From NCBI GenBank assembly GCA_013822735.1, contig PNKZ01000002.1, forward strand, positions 186,001 to 250,000: DNA of 64,000 nt. The letters run 5' to 3'. Below the pieces are notes generated by a model. The model was given only the letters and a program-made list of their open reading frames with translations, was not told the origin of the DNA and made no database searches. Shown piece by piece: positions 47,496 to 55,090 of this stretch. Source of the stretch: Pirellula sp. (GTDB lineage: Bacteria > Planctomycetota > Planctomycetia > Pirellulales > PNKZ01). The number at the start of each line of letters is the position of its first letter. The stretch's first letter is position 1. A program made the translations under genes and the position numbers.

Positions 47496-48188
47496 ATGGT
47501 CACCGCAACTCCGGCCGACGCGACGCTCAAACGCGTTTCCTTGGCCGACGCCGCTTACGACGTCCTCCAGCAGGCGATCCTGCGCGGCGAACTTCCCCCG
47601 GGCGAGGAGCTCAGCGCCGTCGCGCTGGCCGAGCGATATCGCGTCAGCCGCACGCCCATCACCGAAGCCTTGCAACGGCTCACGCACGACGGCCTCGTGC
47701 TGCAAGAGCCGCATCGGCAGCCGAGGGTCGTGAAGCTCGGGCGGAGCGACGTCGTCGAAATCTACGAGATGCGGGCCCAGCTCGAAGCGGCCGCCGCCGA
47801 ACGCGCCGCGTCGCGCATCGCGCCGGCCGTGTGCGAAGCGCTGGAAAAGCGGCTCGACGTTCTCTCCGCCAAACGCAAGCCGAGCAATTGGGCCGAGCTC
47901 GCCATCGAGTTCGATCTGCAATTCCACGACGCCGTCGCGGAAGCCTCGGGCAACGGCCGCTTGCGCGACGACATTGCCCGTTATCGTCGCTTGGTGCGCT
48001 GCTTCTGCAGACTCACCGGCAACGACGACAACCTGCAAGCCGCGATTGCCGAACATCGCACGATTCTCGCCGCGCTGAAAGCACGCCGTCCGGCAACCGC
48101 GCGCAAAGCGATGGCCGCGCATATTGAGAAGCGGCTCGCCGCCGTTCTGGCCGAACTCTATCCGCAAGCCGTTGCGAGGAACTCGTAA
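47496..48188 (+). CDS. GntR family (FCD subgroup) transcription regulator, 230 aa
   Basis: The N-terminal winged helix is 'DAAYDVLQQAILRGELPPGEELSAVALAERYRVSRTPITEALQRLTHDGLVLQEPHRQPRV' (about 16-75). The C-terminal all-helical FCD ligand domain follows ('DVVEIYEMRAQLEAAAAERAA', 'EFDLQFHDAVAEASGNGRL', 'EHRTILAALKARRPATARKAMAAHIEKR') with aspartate and histidines that bind a metal and a carboxylate ligand. It likely represses the divergent hydrolase-amidohydrolase genes and the coupled downstream gene until a sugar acid or similar ligand appears. The ATG at 47496 begins just before the domain. Its stop overlaps the next start (TAATG). Confidence 0.93.
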   Translation: MVTATPADATLKRVSLADAAYDVLQQAILRGELPPGEELSAVALAERYRVSRTPITEALQRLTHDGLVLQEPHRQPRVVKLGRSDVVEIYEMRAQLEAAAAERAASRIAPAVCEALEKRLDVLSAKRKPSNWAELAIEFDLQFHDAVAEASGNGRLRDDIARYRRLVRCFCRLTGNDDNLQAAIAEHRTILAALKARRPATARKAMAAHIEKRLAAVLAELYPQAVARNS

Positions 48189-51100
48189 TGTTCGTCCCGC
48201 ATCTCACTCGCCGCCCCCTTGTTCGTTGGTTCCTCGCCGCCGCCCTGCTCTGCCAAGTCGCGGCCGTTGCAAACAACAAAGCCGTCGCGGCCGACGCAAC
48301 CGACGACTTGTTCCGTCGCGACAATCTCGTCGCCTGGTGCATCGTGCCGTTCGACGCCAAGAAGCGCGGGCCGGAAGAGCGCGCGGCGATGTTGGAGAAG
48401 CTCGGCTTCAAGCATTTCGCCTACGACTTTCGCGCCGAGCACGTGCCGACGTTCGAAGCCGAAATCGAGGCCTGCCGGCGGCACGGCGTCGAGCTTTCTG
48501 CCTGGTGGTTCCCCGGCAGTCTCAACGCCGACGCGCTGCACATCCTGGCCCTCTGCAAGAAGCACAATATCCACCCGGAGCTCTGGATCTCCGGCGGCGG
48601 CACCATTCCCGCTACGCCCGAGGAACAGAAGGCGCGCATCGCGCAAGAGGCGGCCCGCATCCGGCCGATCGCCGAAGCGGCCGCCGCGCAAGGGCTGAAG
48701 GTCGGGCTCTACAACCACGGCGGTTGGTTCGGCGAACCGGAAACGCAACTCGCGATCATCGCCGAACTCCAGCTGCCGAACGTCGGCATGGTCTACAACC
48801 TGCACCATGGGCACGATCAAGTCGAGCGGCTCGCCGAGATCCTCCAGAAGTCGCTGCCGCATTTGCTCTGCGTCAATCTGAACGGCATGGTGCCGCAGGG
48901 AGACCGACAAGGTCAGAAGATTCTGCAACTCGGGCAAGGCTCGCTCGATCTCGGCGTACTGAAAACCATCCGCGCCAGCGGCTACCGCGGGCCGATCGGC
49001 ATTCTCGGCCATACGCAAGACGACGCCGAAGCGCGCCTGCAAGACAACCTCGACGGCCTCGCGTGGCTCGTGCCGCAACTCGACGGCAAGCCGGCCGGCC
49101 CGAAGCCGACGCCGCGTACGCCGGTGCCGGCGGCGAAATCGCCGGAGACTTCTGGGGCATCACTGCGCTCTGCCCCAGCCACCCTTGTCAACGTCTCAAC
49201 GGCGCGGGGCGTCGGCTACGTCATCGCCGGGCGCGAGGAATATCGCACGCCACCGCTGCGGGTCGAAGTACGGGCCAAGCTCCGCGGCAAGTCGGGCTAC
49301 AACATTCTCACGGCGTGCGAACCGAAATCGTCGCCGCGTCATTGGGAGCTCTTCACCATGCCGAACTCGGGTGCGCTCACGGCGTATCTGCCGGGACGCA
49401 AGCCTGACCATGTGCGATCGAGCGTCGACGTCTGCGACGGCAAGCCGCATGACTTGGCGATGAGCTACGAGACGGGCAACGTGAAGCTGTTCGTCGACGG
49501 CAAGCAGGTGGCGGAAGAACGGATCTCCGGCGACGATGCGAAGGCCTCTCCGAAGCCTGGCGACTTCGCCGTCGGCCAACTAGTCGAAGGCAACCTTCGT
49601 TGCGAGGGCGAGATCGAATCGGTCCGCTTAATGAACGCCGCGACCGACGCGCTGCTCGGCTCGTGGCAATTCGCGAAATCCGACGCTGTAAAATCCGATA
49701 CAGCAAAATCGGATACAGCGGAAGTGCCCGACCTTTCCGATCGTAAGAACCCGGCGAAGCGCAGCCCCGCATCGCCGGCCGCCAGCGGTGCCGCCAAGGC
49801 CCCAATTCCGCCGCCGGGCGTGCATCTGAAAGCGGTCGATCCGCGTCTCAAGGTCACGCTCATCGATCGCTCGCCCGACCAGGTTTACATGGGAGTGAAG
49901 GTCGATCGCGATGGGCATGTGTTCGTCGGCGGACGCGAAGGGGTGTTCGTGTTCGTCTCGAACGGTGACGGCACGTTCGCCGCGCGCCGCGAGATTCTGC
50001 GGTTCCCGCAAGACTCGATCATCATGGGCCTGGAGTTTAAGAACGACGATCTCTTCGTGCTCACCTGCAATGCCCTCTATCGCGTGCCGCAGGGGCGCGT
50101 GCAGCGTGAAGGCCTCAAGCCGGAGCGCATTCTCTGGGGCCTGCCGCTCGACTTGCACGTGAGCTTCCATTGCTTGGCGTGGGGACCGGACGGCGATTTG
50201 TACATCACGCACGGCGACCCTTGGCTCGGCTACGGCGATTGGAACCGGCCAGACCATTGGGGGCATTGGGTGCTGTACAGCAAGGGGTCAGGGGTGAGGG
50301 GTCAGGGGTCAGTAGGCGAGCCGGGAGCGTCAGCGACCGGAGTCTCTGCAGCGCGCATCTCCAAAGTCGATCCATCTTGGCGCGAGACGCCCTATTGCGG
50401 CCAGGGGGCCGTGTTGCGGATGAACTTGGAAACGGGTGCGATTGATGTGATCGCCACCGGCTTGCGCGGGCCGGTTGGCTTGGCGTTCAATGAGCAGGGA
50501 GAGCTCTTCACCAACGACAACGATCATGAGAGCAAAGCCGATCAGTATGCCCCTGCGAAGTTGCTACACGTTGCGAGAACCGGCACCGATTTCGGCTGGC
50601 CGCGCGGCTGGATGGCGTCGAAAAGTCCCGATCGACTCGATCTCAACGAACCGATTTGCGATCTCGGCCGTGGTGTCCCGTGTGACCTGTTGTGCTATCC
50701 GTCGCGCTACGCTCCGGCAGCGTGGAAGAATCGACTGTTGATGTGTCGCTGGGACCGCCATTCCGTGACGGCGTACGATTCCAGAACCTCTTCCACGCGA
50801 GAAGAGACGGTACTTGTTGGAGAAGAAAACTGTAGGCCGGTAGGAATTGCTGTTGCCGGCGGGGGCGGCGTTTTCGTGACGGCCCTCTACATGACCGGCA
50901 ACATGGCCGCCCCGTATTGTGCGAGCGATCTCTACTATGTGACGACCAGCGAACCGAATCCCGTCGTACCGAAGCCTACAGGCGAAAGAAGAATACTGTT
51001 CGATCCCGAACTTCCCCGCACTTACGACCAACCGCCGACGGATGAAATGAAACGTCAATACTGGGAGTCGTCCAAGATTGAGGAGAAAGCGAACTCGTAT

Positions 51101-52513
51101 TATTCGGAGGAAGAACGTCGAATCGCAGTCGTGGCGATCGGCGAGCGATTGACCCGACCGGCAACTCATTATGTTCCGCCGACTGAGTTGCCGCTCTTCT
51201 ACCCGAACGAGAGTTCGTTCTTCAAGCGAAAACAGAAGTTCTGGGGAAGCGACGACGCGATCGATCTGGCCGACGTGGCGCGGATCGGCAGTTTCACGAT
51301 CGCCCAGCGTTGGAAGGCGTTGCCGCATTCGGCGGACGAGGAAAAGCTCTTCGGCCTCTTGGTGACCATGCTCGACGACAAGTCGGACGCCGTGAGGTTG
51401 CAGGCGGCGTATTATCTGTCGCTCTTGAACGATCCGCGCAGCGAACCGGTCGTTGAATTAGCGCGGCGCGACGTGCAGTTGCGGCGCTTAAGCAATACGC
51501 AGGAGACATCGTTGAAAGAAGCTTGGATCGTCGGACCCTTTCCCGACGGCGACGACATGACGCTGTCAAAATCGCATGCGCCTGAGCAAGGGACGCTCGA
51601 TCTGACGACAAGCTATTCTGCGGGCACGCGGAGTTTGACTTGGGATAAGGCTCTCGCTACCGAGCTCGGTTGGGTATCTGCGACAAGCGACACTTCGAGC
51701 GACGAACGGCAGTCGTGGTACGTCACATTTCGGGGTGCGAGTGATGCCCGTCGGCAAGGATTGCTGACCGTCAACTTCGTCGGCGCGACGAGCGTCCGGC
51801 TCAACGGTGCGGCGGTGACCGATCGTGTACCGTCACGCAACGCGTGGATTGTCGATTTACAACCCGGCGGCAACGAGTTTTTGATTCGCCTACAAACCGG
51901 ACCAGGCGCGGACGCCGGGACCGTATTCTTCGGTGCGTCGTTACAAGCGGCAGGCAAAATCGAACTAACGCTGCCGGAGAAGCTCGACTCGGCCGAACTT
52001 GCGGCCCGGCTGCGCGAGGCGTCGAGCTCGGGCGGAGCGCAGTCGATTGCGAAGGAATTCCTCGCGCTCGATTGGACCCAGGAAGCGGCGCACGGCGATG
52101 CGGCGGCGGGGCGGCGGTTGTTCGGCACGCTTGGGTGCGCGAAGTGCCATGCGATTGTGCCCGACCAGAAGTCGGCCGGGGCGCCGAGCTTGTTTGAAGC
52201 GCGCAGGCGGTTCAACGTGCCGCACTTGGTGGAGTCGATGCTCTTGCCGAGCCGGCAAGTGGCCGAACCGTTTCGTGCTCAGCAGATCACGACCGACGAC
52301 GGGCTGACGCTCACGGGCCTCGTCGTGTCGGAGTCGGCCGACAACGTCGAGCTGGTCCTGCAAGATGCCAGTCGCCGGACGGTGCCGAAACGTCAGATCG
52401 AGGAACGTACGGTGACGACGCTTTCCCCGATGCCGCAAGGGTTGGTGAAGACCCCGGACGAGCTGCGGAACTTGCTGGCGTATCTGTTGAGCGAGAAGCC
52501 GACGCCGCCGTAG
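48188..52513 (+). CDS. Secreted fusion: sugar isomerase barrel, LamG-like, beta-propeller, HEAT, cytochrome c, 1441 aa
   Basis: After a signal peptide (to about A35) comes a xylose-isomerase-like TIM barrel (about 45-300: 'AMLEKLGFKHFAYDFRAEHV', 'GLKVGLYNHGGWFGEPE', 'VYNLHHGHDQVERL', 'YRGPIGILGHTQDDAEARL'). A concanavalin/LamG-type region (about 330-500) and a PVC-type glucose/sorbosone-dehydrogenase-like propeller (about 560-930: 'VYMGVKVDRDGHVFVGGREGVFVF', 'GLRGPVGLAFNEQGELFTNDND', 'TDFGWPRGWM') follow. Then come HEAT-like helices, a beta domain and a cytochrome c domain with C1317-A-K-C-H1321. It probably oxidises or binds a sugar in the periplasm. A short minisatellite insertion codes 'SKGSGVRGQGSVGEPGASAT' near residue 700. 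It is coupled to the GntR gene. Confidence 0.88.
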   Translation: MFVPHLTRRPLVRWFLAAALLCQVAAVANNKAVAADATDDLFRRDNLVAWCIVPFDAKKRGPEERAAMLEKLGFKHFAYDFRAEHVPTFEAEIEACRRHGVELSAWWFPGSLNADALHILALCKKHNIHPELWISGGGTIPATPEEQKARIAQEAARIRPIAEAAAAQGLKVGLYNHGGWFGEPETQLAIIAELQLPNVGMVYNLHHGHDQVERLAEILQKSLPHLLCVNLNGMVPQGDRQGQKILQLGQGSLDLGVLKTIRASGYRGPIGILGHTQDDAEARLQDNLDGLAWLVPQLDGKPAGPKPTPRTPVPAAKSPETSGASLRSAPATLVNVSTARGVGYVIAGREEYRTPPLRVEVRAKLRGKSGYNILTACEPKSSPRHWELFTMPNSGALTAYLPGRKPDHVRSSVDVCDGKPHDLAMSYETGNVKLFVDGKQVAEERISGDDAKASPKPGDFAVGQLVEGNLRCEGEIESVRLMNAATDALLGSWQFAKSDAVKSDTAKSDTAEVPDLSDRKNPAKRSPASPAASGAAKAPIPPPGVHLKAVDPRLKVTLIDRSPDQVYMGVKVDRDGHVFVGGREGVFVFVSNGDGTFAARREILRFPQDSIIMGLEFKNDDLFVLTCNALYRVPQGRVQREGLKPERILWGLPLDLHVSFHCLAWGPDGDLYITHGDPWLGYGDWNRPDHWGHWVLYSKGSGVRGQGSVGEPGASATGVSAARISKVDPSWRETPYCGQGAVLRMNLETGAIDVIATGLRGPVGLAFNEQGELFTNDNDHESKADQYAPAKLLHVARTGTDFGWPRGWMASKSPDRLDLNEPICDLGRGVPCDLLCYPSRYAPAAWKNRLLMCRWDRHSVTAYDSRTSSTREETVLVGEENCRPVGIAVAGGGGVFVTALYMTGNMAAPYCASDLYYVTTSEPNPVVPKPTGERRILFDPELPRTYDQPPTDEMKRQYWESSKIEEKANSYYSEEERRIAVVAIGERLTRPATHYVPPTELPLFYPNESSFFKRKQKFWGSDDAIDLADVARIGSFTIAQRWKALPHSADEEKLFGLLVTMLDDKSDAVRLQAAYYLSLLNDPRSEPVVELARRDVQLRRLSNTQETSLKEAWIVGPFPDGDDMTLSKSHAPEQGTLDLTTSYSAGTRSLTWDKALATELGWVSATSDTSSDERQSWYVTFRGASDARRQGLLTVNFVGATSVRLNGAAVTDRVPSRNAWIVDLQPGGNEFLIRLQTGPGADAGTVFFGASLQAAGKIELTLPEKLDSAELAARLREASSSGGAQSIAKEFLALDWTQEAAHGDAAAGRRLFGTLGCAKCHAIVPDQKSAGAPSLFEARRRFNVPHLVESMLLPSRQVAEPFRAQQITTDDGLTLTGLVVSESADNVELVLQDASRRTVPKRQIEERTVTTLSPMPQGLVKTPDELRNLLAYLLSEKPTPP
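50284..50345. repeat. Minisatellite-like insertion inside the fusion gene
   Basis: Units of GGGGTCA/GGGGTGA are followed by GGCGAGCCGGGAGCGTCAGC and GACCGGAGT. These motifs are common in intergenic planctomycete DNA. Here they lie in frame in a loop of the beta-propeller, adding about 20 residues without a stop. Confidence 0.7.
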
Positions 52514-53011: not shown

Positions 53012-55090
53012 ATGTGCCGCTTCACAATGGAAACACTTGCGAAGCTTGCCATGATGCCGGACTTCTTGAATCGGATTCACAACGGGGATTGCGTCGCCGG
53101 AATGAACGGCTTGCCGGAGGGGTGCGTCGACTTGGCGTTCGCCGATCCGCCGTTCAACATCGGCTACAAGTACGACGTCTACGACGATCGCCGCGAGCGG
53201 GAGCATTATCTCGATTGGTCGCGCGAGTGGATCTCGGCCGTGTATCGCGCCCTGAAGCCGAGCGGCACGTTTTGGTTGGCGATCGGCGACGAGTATGCCG
53301 CGGAACTCAAGGTCCTGAGCCAAGAGATCGGCTTCCATTCGCGCAGTTGGGTCGTTTGGTACTACACGTTCGGCGTGAACTGCGTGAATAAGTTTACGCG
53401 CTCGCATGCGCACCTGTTCTACTTTGTGAAGGACCCGACGACGTTTACGTTTCGGGGGGACGCGCCGGAGAACCGCATCCCGTCGGCGCGGCAGCTCGTG
53501 TACAACGACTCGCGCGCGAACCCCAAGGGGCGGCTGCCGGACGATACGTGGATTCTGCGCCCGCAGGACATGGCCGATTGCTTCACGCCGGAAGAAGATA
53601 CCTGGTACTTTCCGCGCGTGGCGGGCACCTTCAAAGAACGGGCCGGCTTCCACGGCTGCCAGATGCCGGAGCAATTGCTAGGCCGGATCATTCGTTATTG
53701 CTCGAACGAAGGGGAGACGGTGCTCGACCCGTTCTCCGGCAGTGCGACGACGCTGGTGACCGCGAAGAAGTTGAATCGCAACTATCTCGGCTTCGAACTC
53801 TCGCCCGAGTATGCGGGGCGCGGTTCGGAACGGTTGACGCTGGCGGAAGTGGGCGCGCCGCTGGTGGGCGCCGCCGATCCGACGCGCAGCGCGCCGGCGA
53901 CTCCGGACGGCTCGGGCAAGCGGGGACGTACCAAGGGGGCGAAAGTTGCCGAGGTGCCTGCGGCGCGCTATGCGATGACGGAGCCGGCGATGGCGGAGTT
54001 TGCCGCGGCGACCGCGACGGAAGAGTCGGAAGCTGCCGAGATCTTGGCCGTGGCCGAGGTGGTGGCCGACGTCGAGGATGCGGCGTTGAGTGAAACGGCC
54101 GGCGAGCGCGTGGTGGTCGAAGGGGTAGCCCTGATTGCGAGCGGCCCTGAGGCGTCGATTCATGTGACTTCTGTCGAAGTTGCCTCGGTTGACGCTGCTT
54201 CCGTAACTTCGGTTGAGCCTGGGGAGGCGCGGAAGCAGTTGCTGGTTGAGGCGTTTCGGCGGTCGTGCCAGGGGTACTCGGCCGATCGGATTGTGACCGA
54301 TCCGGCGCTGCAGGCCGCGTTTCAGGCGGAATGCCGCCGACTCGGCGTGGCCGGCGAGGCGCGCGATTGTAATGCGGCGCTATTGAAGCTGCGGAAGGCC
54401 GGCCGGCTTGCGGAAGTGCCGACGACGGCGCGGACGGAAATGACCTGGGAAGAATGTGAACCGCATGCGGCGGCGGCCGAGATGGCCGCGGCGCGCGTGC
54501 TCGGTAGCCGGCCCGACGTGAGCCTGGACGACTTGTTTTGCGATCCGCAATTGACGGCCGAGTTCGACAAGCAGGCTTCGCGTGTGGGCGGAGGACGGAA
54601 GCCGTTTGCGTACCGTTGGACGGCGCTGAAGCTGCGGAAGGACGCGCACCAGCTGCAAGAGCGCGGCGCGGCGTGGCGACGACGCGAGCTGAAGTTCACG
54701 ACGCCGACGCCGACGAGCCGTAAGAATTGGTGGAAAAGTTTGCCGAGTGCCGCCGGCATTTATCTGGTGCTCAACGCCGAAGGGACCCGACTGTTTGTGG
54801 GGGCCGCGCTCGACCTGCGAGCACGGCTGGAGAAGCTGCTGGCGCCGACGAAGCTGGCGGCCTTGGATCGGTCGCGCGATATTCGCGTATCGGTTTGTGC
54901 GATCGATGCGCCGTGGATCGAACTCTTGGCCGGAGCGCATGCGTTAGCGCAACGGGCCGGCGCGCCTTTGAATTGGTTGTCGCATGCGCACGGCGCGGAA
55001 AGTTCGACGGCCGACGTCGGCGAGCGACGGTCGACGACGAAGCAGCGACAAACTGCGCGGCGGCCGCGACGAATTGTCGCGACCTCTTAA
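53012..55090 (+). CDS. DNA methyltransferase (beta class) fused to a GIY-YIG-like domain, 692 aa
   Basis: The N-terminal 270 residues are a DNA methyltransferase with the order motif IV then I: 'DLAFADPPFNIGYKYD' (DPPF 45-48), 'YRALKPSGTFWLAIGDEYAAELK', 'VVWYYTFGVNCVNKFTRSHAHLFYFVKD', then 'GETVLDPFSGSATTLVTAKKLNRNYLGFEL' (DPFSG from 239). It should methylate adenine N6 or cytosine N4. An Ala/Glu-rich linker and helical 'DPALQAAFQAECRRLG' repeats (about 405-560) lead to 'AGIYLVLNAEGTRLFVGAALDLRARLEKLL' (GIY 582-584, FVG 595-597, Arg about 604), E637 and PLN 652-654, the layout of a GIY-YIG nuclease domain. Starts at 53027 and 53051 are possible. No separate restriction gene is adjacent. Confidence 0.87.
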   Translation: MCRFTMETLAKLAMMPDFLNRIHNGDCVAGMNGLPEGCVDLAFADPPFNIGYKYDVYDDRREREHYLDWSREWISAVYRALKPSGTFWLAIGDEYAAELKVLSQEIGFHSRSWVVWYYTFGVNCVNKFTRSHAHLFYFVKDPTTFTFRGDAPENRIPSARQLVYNDSRANPKGRLPDDTWILRPQDMADCFTPEEDTWYFPRVAGTFKERAGFHGCQMPEQLLGRIIRYCSNEGETVLDPFSGSATTLVTAKKLNRNYLGFELSPEYAGRGSERLTLAEVGAPLVGAADPTRSAPATPDGSGKRGRTKGAKVAEVPAARYAMTEPAMAEFAAATATEESEAAEILAVAEVVADVEDAALSETAGERVVVEGVALIASGPEASIHVTSVEVASVDAASVTSVEPGEARKQLLVEAFRRSCQGYSADRIVTDPALQAAFQAECRRLGVAGEARDCNAALLKLRKAGRLAEVPTTARTEMTWEECEPHAAAAEMAAARVLGSRPDVSLDDLFCDPQLTAEFDKQASRVGGGRKPFAYRWTALKLRKDAHQLQERGAAWRRRELKFTTPTPTSRKNWWKSLPSAAGIYLVLNAEGTRLFVGAALDLRARLEKLLAPTKLAALDRSRDIRVSVCAIDAPWIELLAGAHALAQRAGAPLNWLSHAHGAESSTADVGERRSTTKQRQTARRPRRIVATS

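Follow-up and report, generated by a model that had tools for sequence, protein, structure and literature searches.

A DNA methyltransferase fused to a probable GIY-YIG pseudonuclease in Pirellula sp., probably descended from a two-gene restriction-modification-like system

The window (a stretch of 64,000 nucleotides from Pirellula sp., contig PNKZ01000002.1) contains an open frame that encodes a methyltransferase domain, a linker, two helical repeats named A and B and a C-terminal GIY-YIG-fold domain (Table 1). The start codon is uncertain: the N-termini of the homologues lie near the ATG codons 53051 and 53054, so the true start may be located there. The first domain matches the Pfam family N6_N4_Mtase (PF01555) from residue 39 to residue 268 (E 4e-49, 167.9 bits for a cut-off of 26.7). 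The motifs DPPF (residues 45-48) and DPFSG (residues 239-243) are intact, as the earlier note had read them, and DPPx (motif IV) precedes DPFxG (motif I). The Pfam score above the cut-off and this motif order place the domain in the beta class of DNA methyltransferases. A fold search with the predicted model recovers MboIIA, CcrM and M.BceJIV, with Z values of 21.7-23.6 and about 25-32% identity. These three enzymes and the window protein are alike in fold, in motif order and in both motifs but, unlike the window protein, M.BceJIV, CcrM and M.MboIIA possess neither the AB repeats nor a GIY-YIG tail. PADLOC returned mainly generic methyltransferase models. Judged from its sequence, the window protein is an active-looking DNA methyltransferase, most likely of the adenine-N6 type. 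In the fused genes of L051, L052 and L053, and thus in only some of the fused homologues, an extra stretch partly repeating the segment LRPQD is found within the methyltransferase domain.

The linker between the methyltransferase and the repeats is disordered according to the model, and displays 39% amino acid identity between congeners. The repeats A and B (~60 residues each) are homologous to one another (hhalign 96.9%, E 1.7e-10). No Pfam family was matched by these repeats, and no named fold was assigned to them because the fold search gave them weak matches, to HTH regulators among others, with Z about 5.

The downstream neighbours of the fused gene encode a histidine kinase, a sigma-54 response regulator and MsrA, and they stand beside it only within the genus. 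No defence island was seen around the gene. Elsewhere in the window, positions 48188-52513 (plus strand) encode a protein of 1441 amino acids with TIM-barrel AP_endonuc_2 and Laminin_G_3 domains; the C-terminal part of its translation contains a CxxCH haem-binding-like motif.

Table 1. Features of the fused gene in the window and of further module genes in relatives (positions in the window unless preceded by a locus name).
Feature	Position	Strand	Evidence or remark
MTase-A-B-pseudo-GIY-YIG fusion protein	53012..55090	+	open frame, 692 aa as listed
Beta-class N6/N4 DNA methyltransferase domain, about aa 19-279	53066..53848	+	Pfam E 4e-49; PDB relatives M.BceJIV, CcrM, MboIIA
Low-complexity linker, aa 280-405, weakly conserved	53849..54226	+	pLDDT below 50 for most of aa 292-401
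Helical repeat A, aa 406-470, four helices, invariant LRK	54227..54421	+	pLDDT >90
Helical repeat B, aa 480-548	54449..54655	+	predicted model; homology to A
Predicted GIY-YIG-fold pseudonuclease domain, aa 575-660	54734..54991	+	profile to UvrC, site table, model topology
HicB-domain + AB + GIY-YIG proteins, Leu at Glu position	L057:5116-6258, L059:4886-6160	-	Pfam HicB, site table
HicB-domain + AB + GIY-YIG proteins, Leu at Glu position	L060:4654-5862, L061:5167-6171	+	Pfam HicB, site table
AB + GIY-YIG proteins with Glu	L189:2275-3282, L190:7265-8140, L191:6999-8093	-	G464, G452, G484

Compared with the Pfam GIY-YIG family, the C-terminus of the window protein remains below the threshold (13.9-17.0 bits for a cut-off of 22.6), and a profile made from the genus alone matches UvrC weakly (E 0.006). 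The profile of 28 homologues matches the N-terminal structures of UvrC with an E value of 9e-10. The model of the window protein displays the element order of the GIY-YIG fold with a pLDDT of about 90, and this order is the same in the model of the partner nuclease found in relatives, for which a fold search gives Z 10.1 with UvrC and Z 9.9 with I-TevI. For the window protein, the fold assignment relies on element order and profiles, since the fold search with the full model was filled by methyltransferase matches. By predicted fold and by profile homology, the C-terminal domain is a member of the GIY-YIG superfamily, and the fusion to a GIY-YIG-like domain noticed earlier is borne out. The N-terminal nuclease domain of UvrC/Cho is the closest relative of the catalytic domain by profile and fold, but the other UvrC domains are absent here and Glu76 is missing in the fused form.

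We take the site residues of T. maritima UvrC to be Y19, Y29, R39, E76 and N88, with roles known from established UvrC work. The aligned residues of the window protein are Y584, F595, R605, A642 and N654, included in the motifs GIY (582-584), FVG (595-597) and, for N654, PLN. The metal-binding Glu (E76 in UvrC, E75 in I-TevI, E142 in Eco29kI) is located 12 residues ahead of the Asn. This position is Ala642 in the window, so the protein lacks the metal-binding residue of an active GIY-YIG nuclease. The Glu that the earlier note had placed after DLRARL as the catalytic residue is E607, which belongs to the Arg helix; E607 was also rejected as a substitute acid because it is not conserved even within the genus. 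The Phe replacing the second Tyr (F595) is indeed present, but the change is minor; Phe occupies this position in 12 of 63 fused homologues. In the set of 65 fused homologues, the residue aligned with Glu76 is Gln in 44 sequences, Arg in 7, Lys in 5, Ala in 4 and another one in a few, but never Glu. Thus, of the two residues whose conservation was to be checked in homologues, the Arg is mostly conserved and the Glu is not. Tyr, Gly and Asn are likewise largely kept, and one congener has Thr instead of the catalytic Arg (L055/L182).

With no Glu in any of these 65 sequences, the fused domain is very probably a conserved pseudonuclease, unable to cut. In R.Eco29kI, the mutant E142A has 0% cleavage and keeps DNA binding, with a Kd of 45 nM for 16 nM in the wild type (PMC1952068). 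By analogy, the loss of Glu would leave a domain that is likely non-cutting and may well bind DNA.

Modification and restriction in one chain, which the earlier note had suggested, would imply a Type IIC-like protein whose GIY-YIG domain still cuts, another residue binding the metal. The fact that Tyr, Gly, Arg and Asn of the site are mostly conserved and the purifying selection acting on the domain are compatible with such a protein, as is the artificial RM.Eco29kI fusion (PMC3039593), which is functional and likewise joins a methyltransferase and a GIY-YIG nuclease in one chain. Both activities are live in that fusion, whereas the nuclease half is predicted to be dead here. Against a single-chain system stand the universal loss of Glu, the failure to find a replacement acid in the fused copies (the Glu at the K32 position is common to the live partners and is Ala in the window) and the congener without the catalytic Arg. 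A Type IIC system contains a functional nuclease and a functional methyltransferase; with its Glu absent, the window protein very probably lacks the former, and we regard a cutting fused domain as highly improbable.

Beyond the view of the earlier note, some relatives hold, beside the fusion, a separate nuclease gene that is intact as judged by its residues. In 13 of the loci first gathered, a second gene composed of A, B and GIY-YIG alone is located directly 3' of the fused gene. Two more tandem partners were detected later (G399 and G481), for a total of 15 relatives. The residues Tyr, Tyr, Arg, His, Glu and Asn are intact in 13/13 of the first tandem partners. The stop codon of the fused gene and the start codon of the partner overlap by ATGA in 8/13 loci, and all 13 gaps are within about 10 nucleotides, given free choice of start. 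In a tree computed after removal of the Glu column, the fused modules all form one clade (100/98 support) and the tandem partners lie outside. Across loci, the distances that separate the fused modules from one another correlate with those that separate the partners (r 0.66, 0/20000 permutations), which fits joint inheritance of the two genes. PADLOC gave weak PDC-S14 matches for the partner. Among 196 genomes of the order, the module is present in 53 and the tandem partner in 7; in the phylum-wide search, matches spanning only roughly the profile positions 120-250 look UvrC-like and were left uncounted. No relatives of the partner nuclease were found in viral contigs, phages or plasmids at the limits used, and there was no sign of mobile carriage.

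The module also occurs beside methyltransferases of another class. Module proteins with an N-terminal HicB domain adjoin D12-class adenine methyltransferases in G005, G018, G037 and G010, and in L057, L059, L060 and L061 the module genes are divergent from the gene of the D12-class methyltransferase, of which L061 has a short fragment. These HicB-type proteins with Leu possibly represent a second pseudonuclease lineage or a methyltransferase regulator. In G437, a module protein with Glu stands ahead of the D12 gene. In G471 (L192:366-5241, minus strand), the genes of a Type III Res protein, of a D12 methyltransferase and of a Glu-bearing AB-GIY-YIG protein overlap in one apparent operon, where the module gene comes after the two others. 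The Glu-bearing homologues of G464, G452 and G484 have hydrophobic N-termini that resemble, by eye, a signal peptide or a membrane segment, and no methyltransferase was seen near their genes.

The module thus has links to two unrelated DNA methyltransferase classes and, mainly on this ground, we infer that its live form would be a restriction nuclease. The partner could instead be a repair or other nuclease. In a repair or mismatch couple, the live partner would cut DNA that is damaged or hemimethylated, to which the methyltransferase would be brought by its fused tail. The kinship of the catalytic domain with the repair nucleases UvrC/Cho speaks for such a couple, together with the non-defence neighbours of the window gene and the nearly order-wide presence of the methyltransferase (matched in 56 of the 57 genomes sampled around the window, two of these matches being weak). 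However, a partner as patchy as this one (7/196 genomes), and a module coupled to two unrelated methyltransferase classes and once to a Type III Res, fit restriction better, and a repair couple appears unlikely.

The reading that we consider probable is that the window protein is a methyltransferase with a dead GIY-YIG module and derives from an R-M-like system of two genes, in which it would be the modification subunit. In the ancestor, the first gene would encode the methyltransferase with AB and the dead GIY-YIG, and the second gene, translationally coupled to the first, would encode AB with the live GIY-YIG. The fused AB and GIY-YIG would bind DNA, and perhaps the partner too; methylation and cleavage would thereby address the same sites and the product of the second gene would cut unmethylated DNA. 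The support found in the sequences consists of the architecture, the universal loss of Glu in the fused copy, the Glu kept in the partner, the gene overlap, the co-inheritance and the patchy absence of both partner and tail. More tentatively, the dead nuclease copy of the methyltransferase might serve the adjoining live nuclease as a shared subunit for target recognition or docking, an idea about which we have more doubt than belief. Modification and restriction would then share one DNA-reading AB module, which is paired separately with D12-class methyltransferases. As the two proteins carry homologous modules, of which one would be dead and the other live, they suggest a possible way to hold methylation and cleavage to the same sites.

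Concerning the genome of the window, it contains a single copy of the module, the fused one; no second module gene was found there, and hence no gene pair of the Type II R-M kind. No live partner was detected in the genus, where the draft genomes may hide one at a contig end. Since the second gene was not found in the genus, the window protein would most likely be an orphan methyltransferase, unless an unrelated nuclease shares its target, and its tail would be a DNA-binding module on which purifying selection acts less strictly. Between congeners, the dN/dS ratios are 0.10-0.13 for the methyltransferase, 0.13-0.31 for the repeats and 0.15-0.37 for the GIY-YIG domain, these values being rough as dS is high. 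On these rough values, the GIY-YIG domain appears constrained, yet it is the loosest of the folded domains. This lower conservation would also be expected if the tail were functionless and decaying in this genus; each of the catalytic residues Tyr, Arg and Glu is missing from at least one congener, and the tail is absent from many relatives. Nevertheless, dN/dS is well under 1, the tail is complete to its end in 4/4 genomes of the genus and the confidence in its fold is high, which makes decay a rather improbable explanation. On the methyltransferase tree, the fused label switches about 21 times. Repeated loss of the tail is the simplest reading, the alternative being transfer of tails, and it is favoured because the fused tails form one clade. 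The gene pair, the fusion without partner and the bare methyltransferase constitute a natural series for studying the passage from a restriction system to an orphan methyltransferase.

Among the known systems, R.Eco29kI and R.Hpy188I with their methyltransferases likewise combine an R-M-like gene pair with the GIY-YIG fold, but here the methyltransferase itself bears AB repeats and a copy of the nuclease module that is predicted to be dead. The DnmA-YeeB-YeeC genes of B. subtilis form an R-M-like cluster that includes a T5orf172/GIY-YIG neighbour; no restriction was observed in tests of it, and the authors propose an orphan methyltransferase from a relic R-M system (PMC9973331). Both cases have in common that the gene of an adenine methyltransferase is clustered, in a conserved arrangement, with one of the T5orf172/GIY-YIG type; the B. 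subtilis cluster differs by its MmeI-like methyltransferase and helicase gene, and no fused pseudonuclease is described there (PMC9973331). The literature search found no comparable methylation study in Planctomycetota, and no paper joining the terms "Planctomycetota" and "GIY-YIG".

Among the best 80 loci of one scan and in the phylum-limited genome searches, every relative of the module came from a record titled Planctomycetota or unclassified bacteria, and others may exist elsewhere. Three loci (L076, L077 and L079) come from MAGs titled Candidatus Kuenenia. Their fused genes are nearly identical to that of L080, from another Planctomycetota MAG, and fall inside the fused clade, which reflects either binning errors or transfer.
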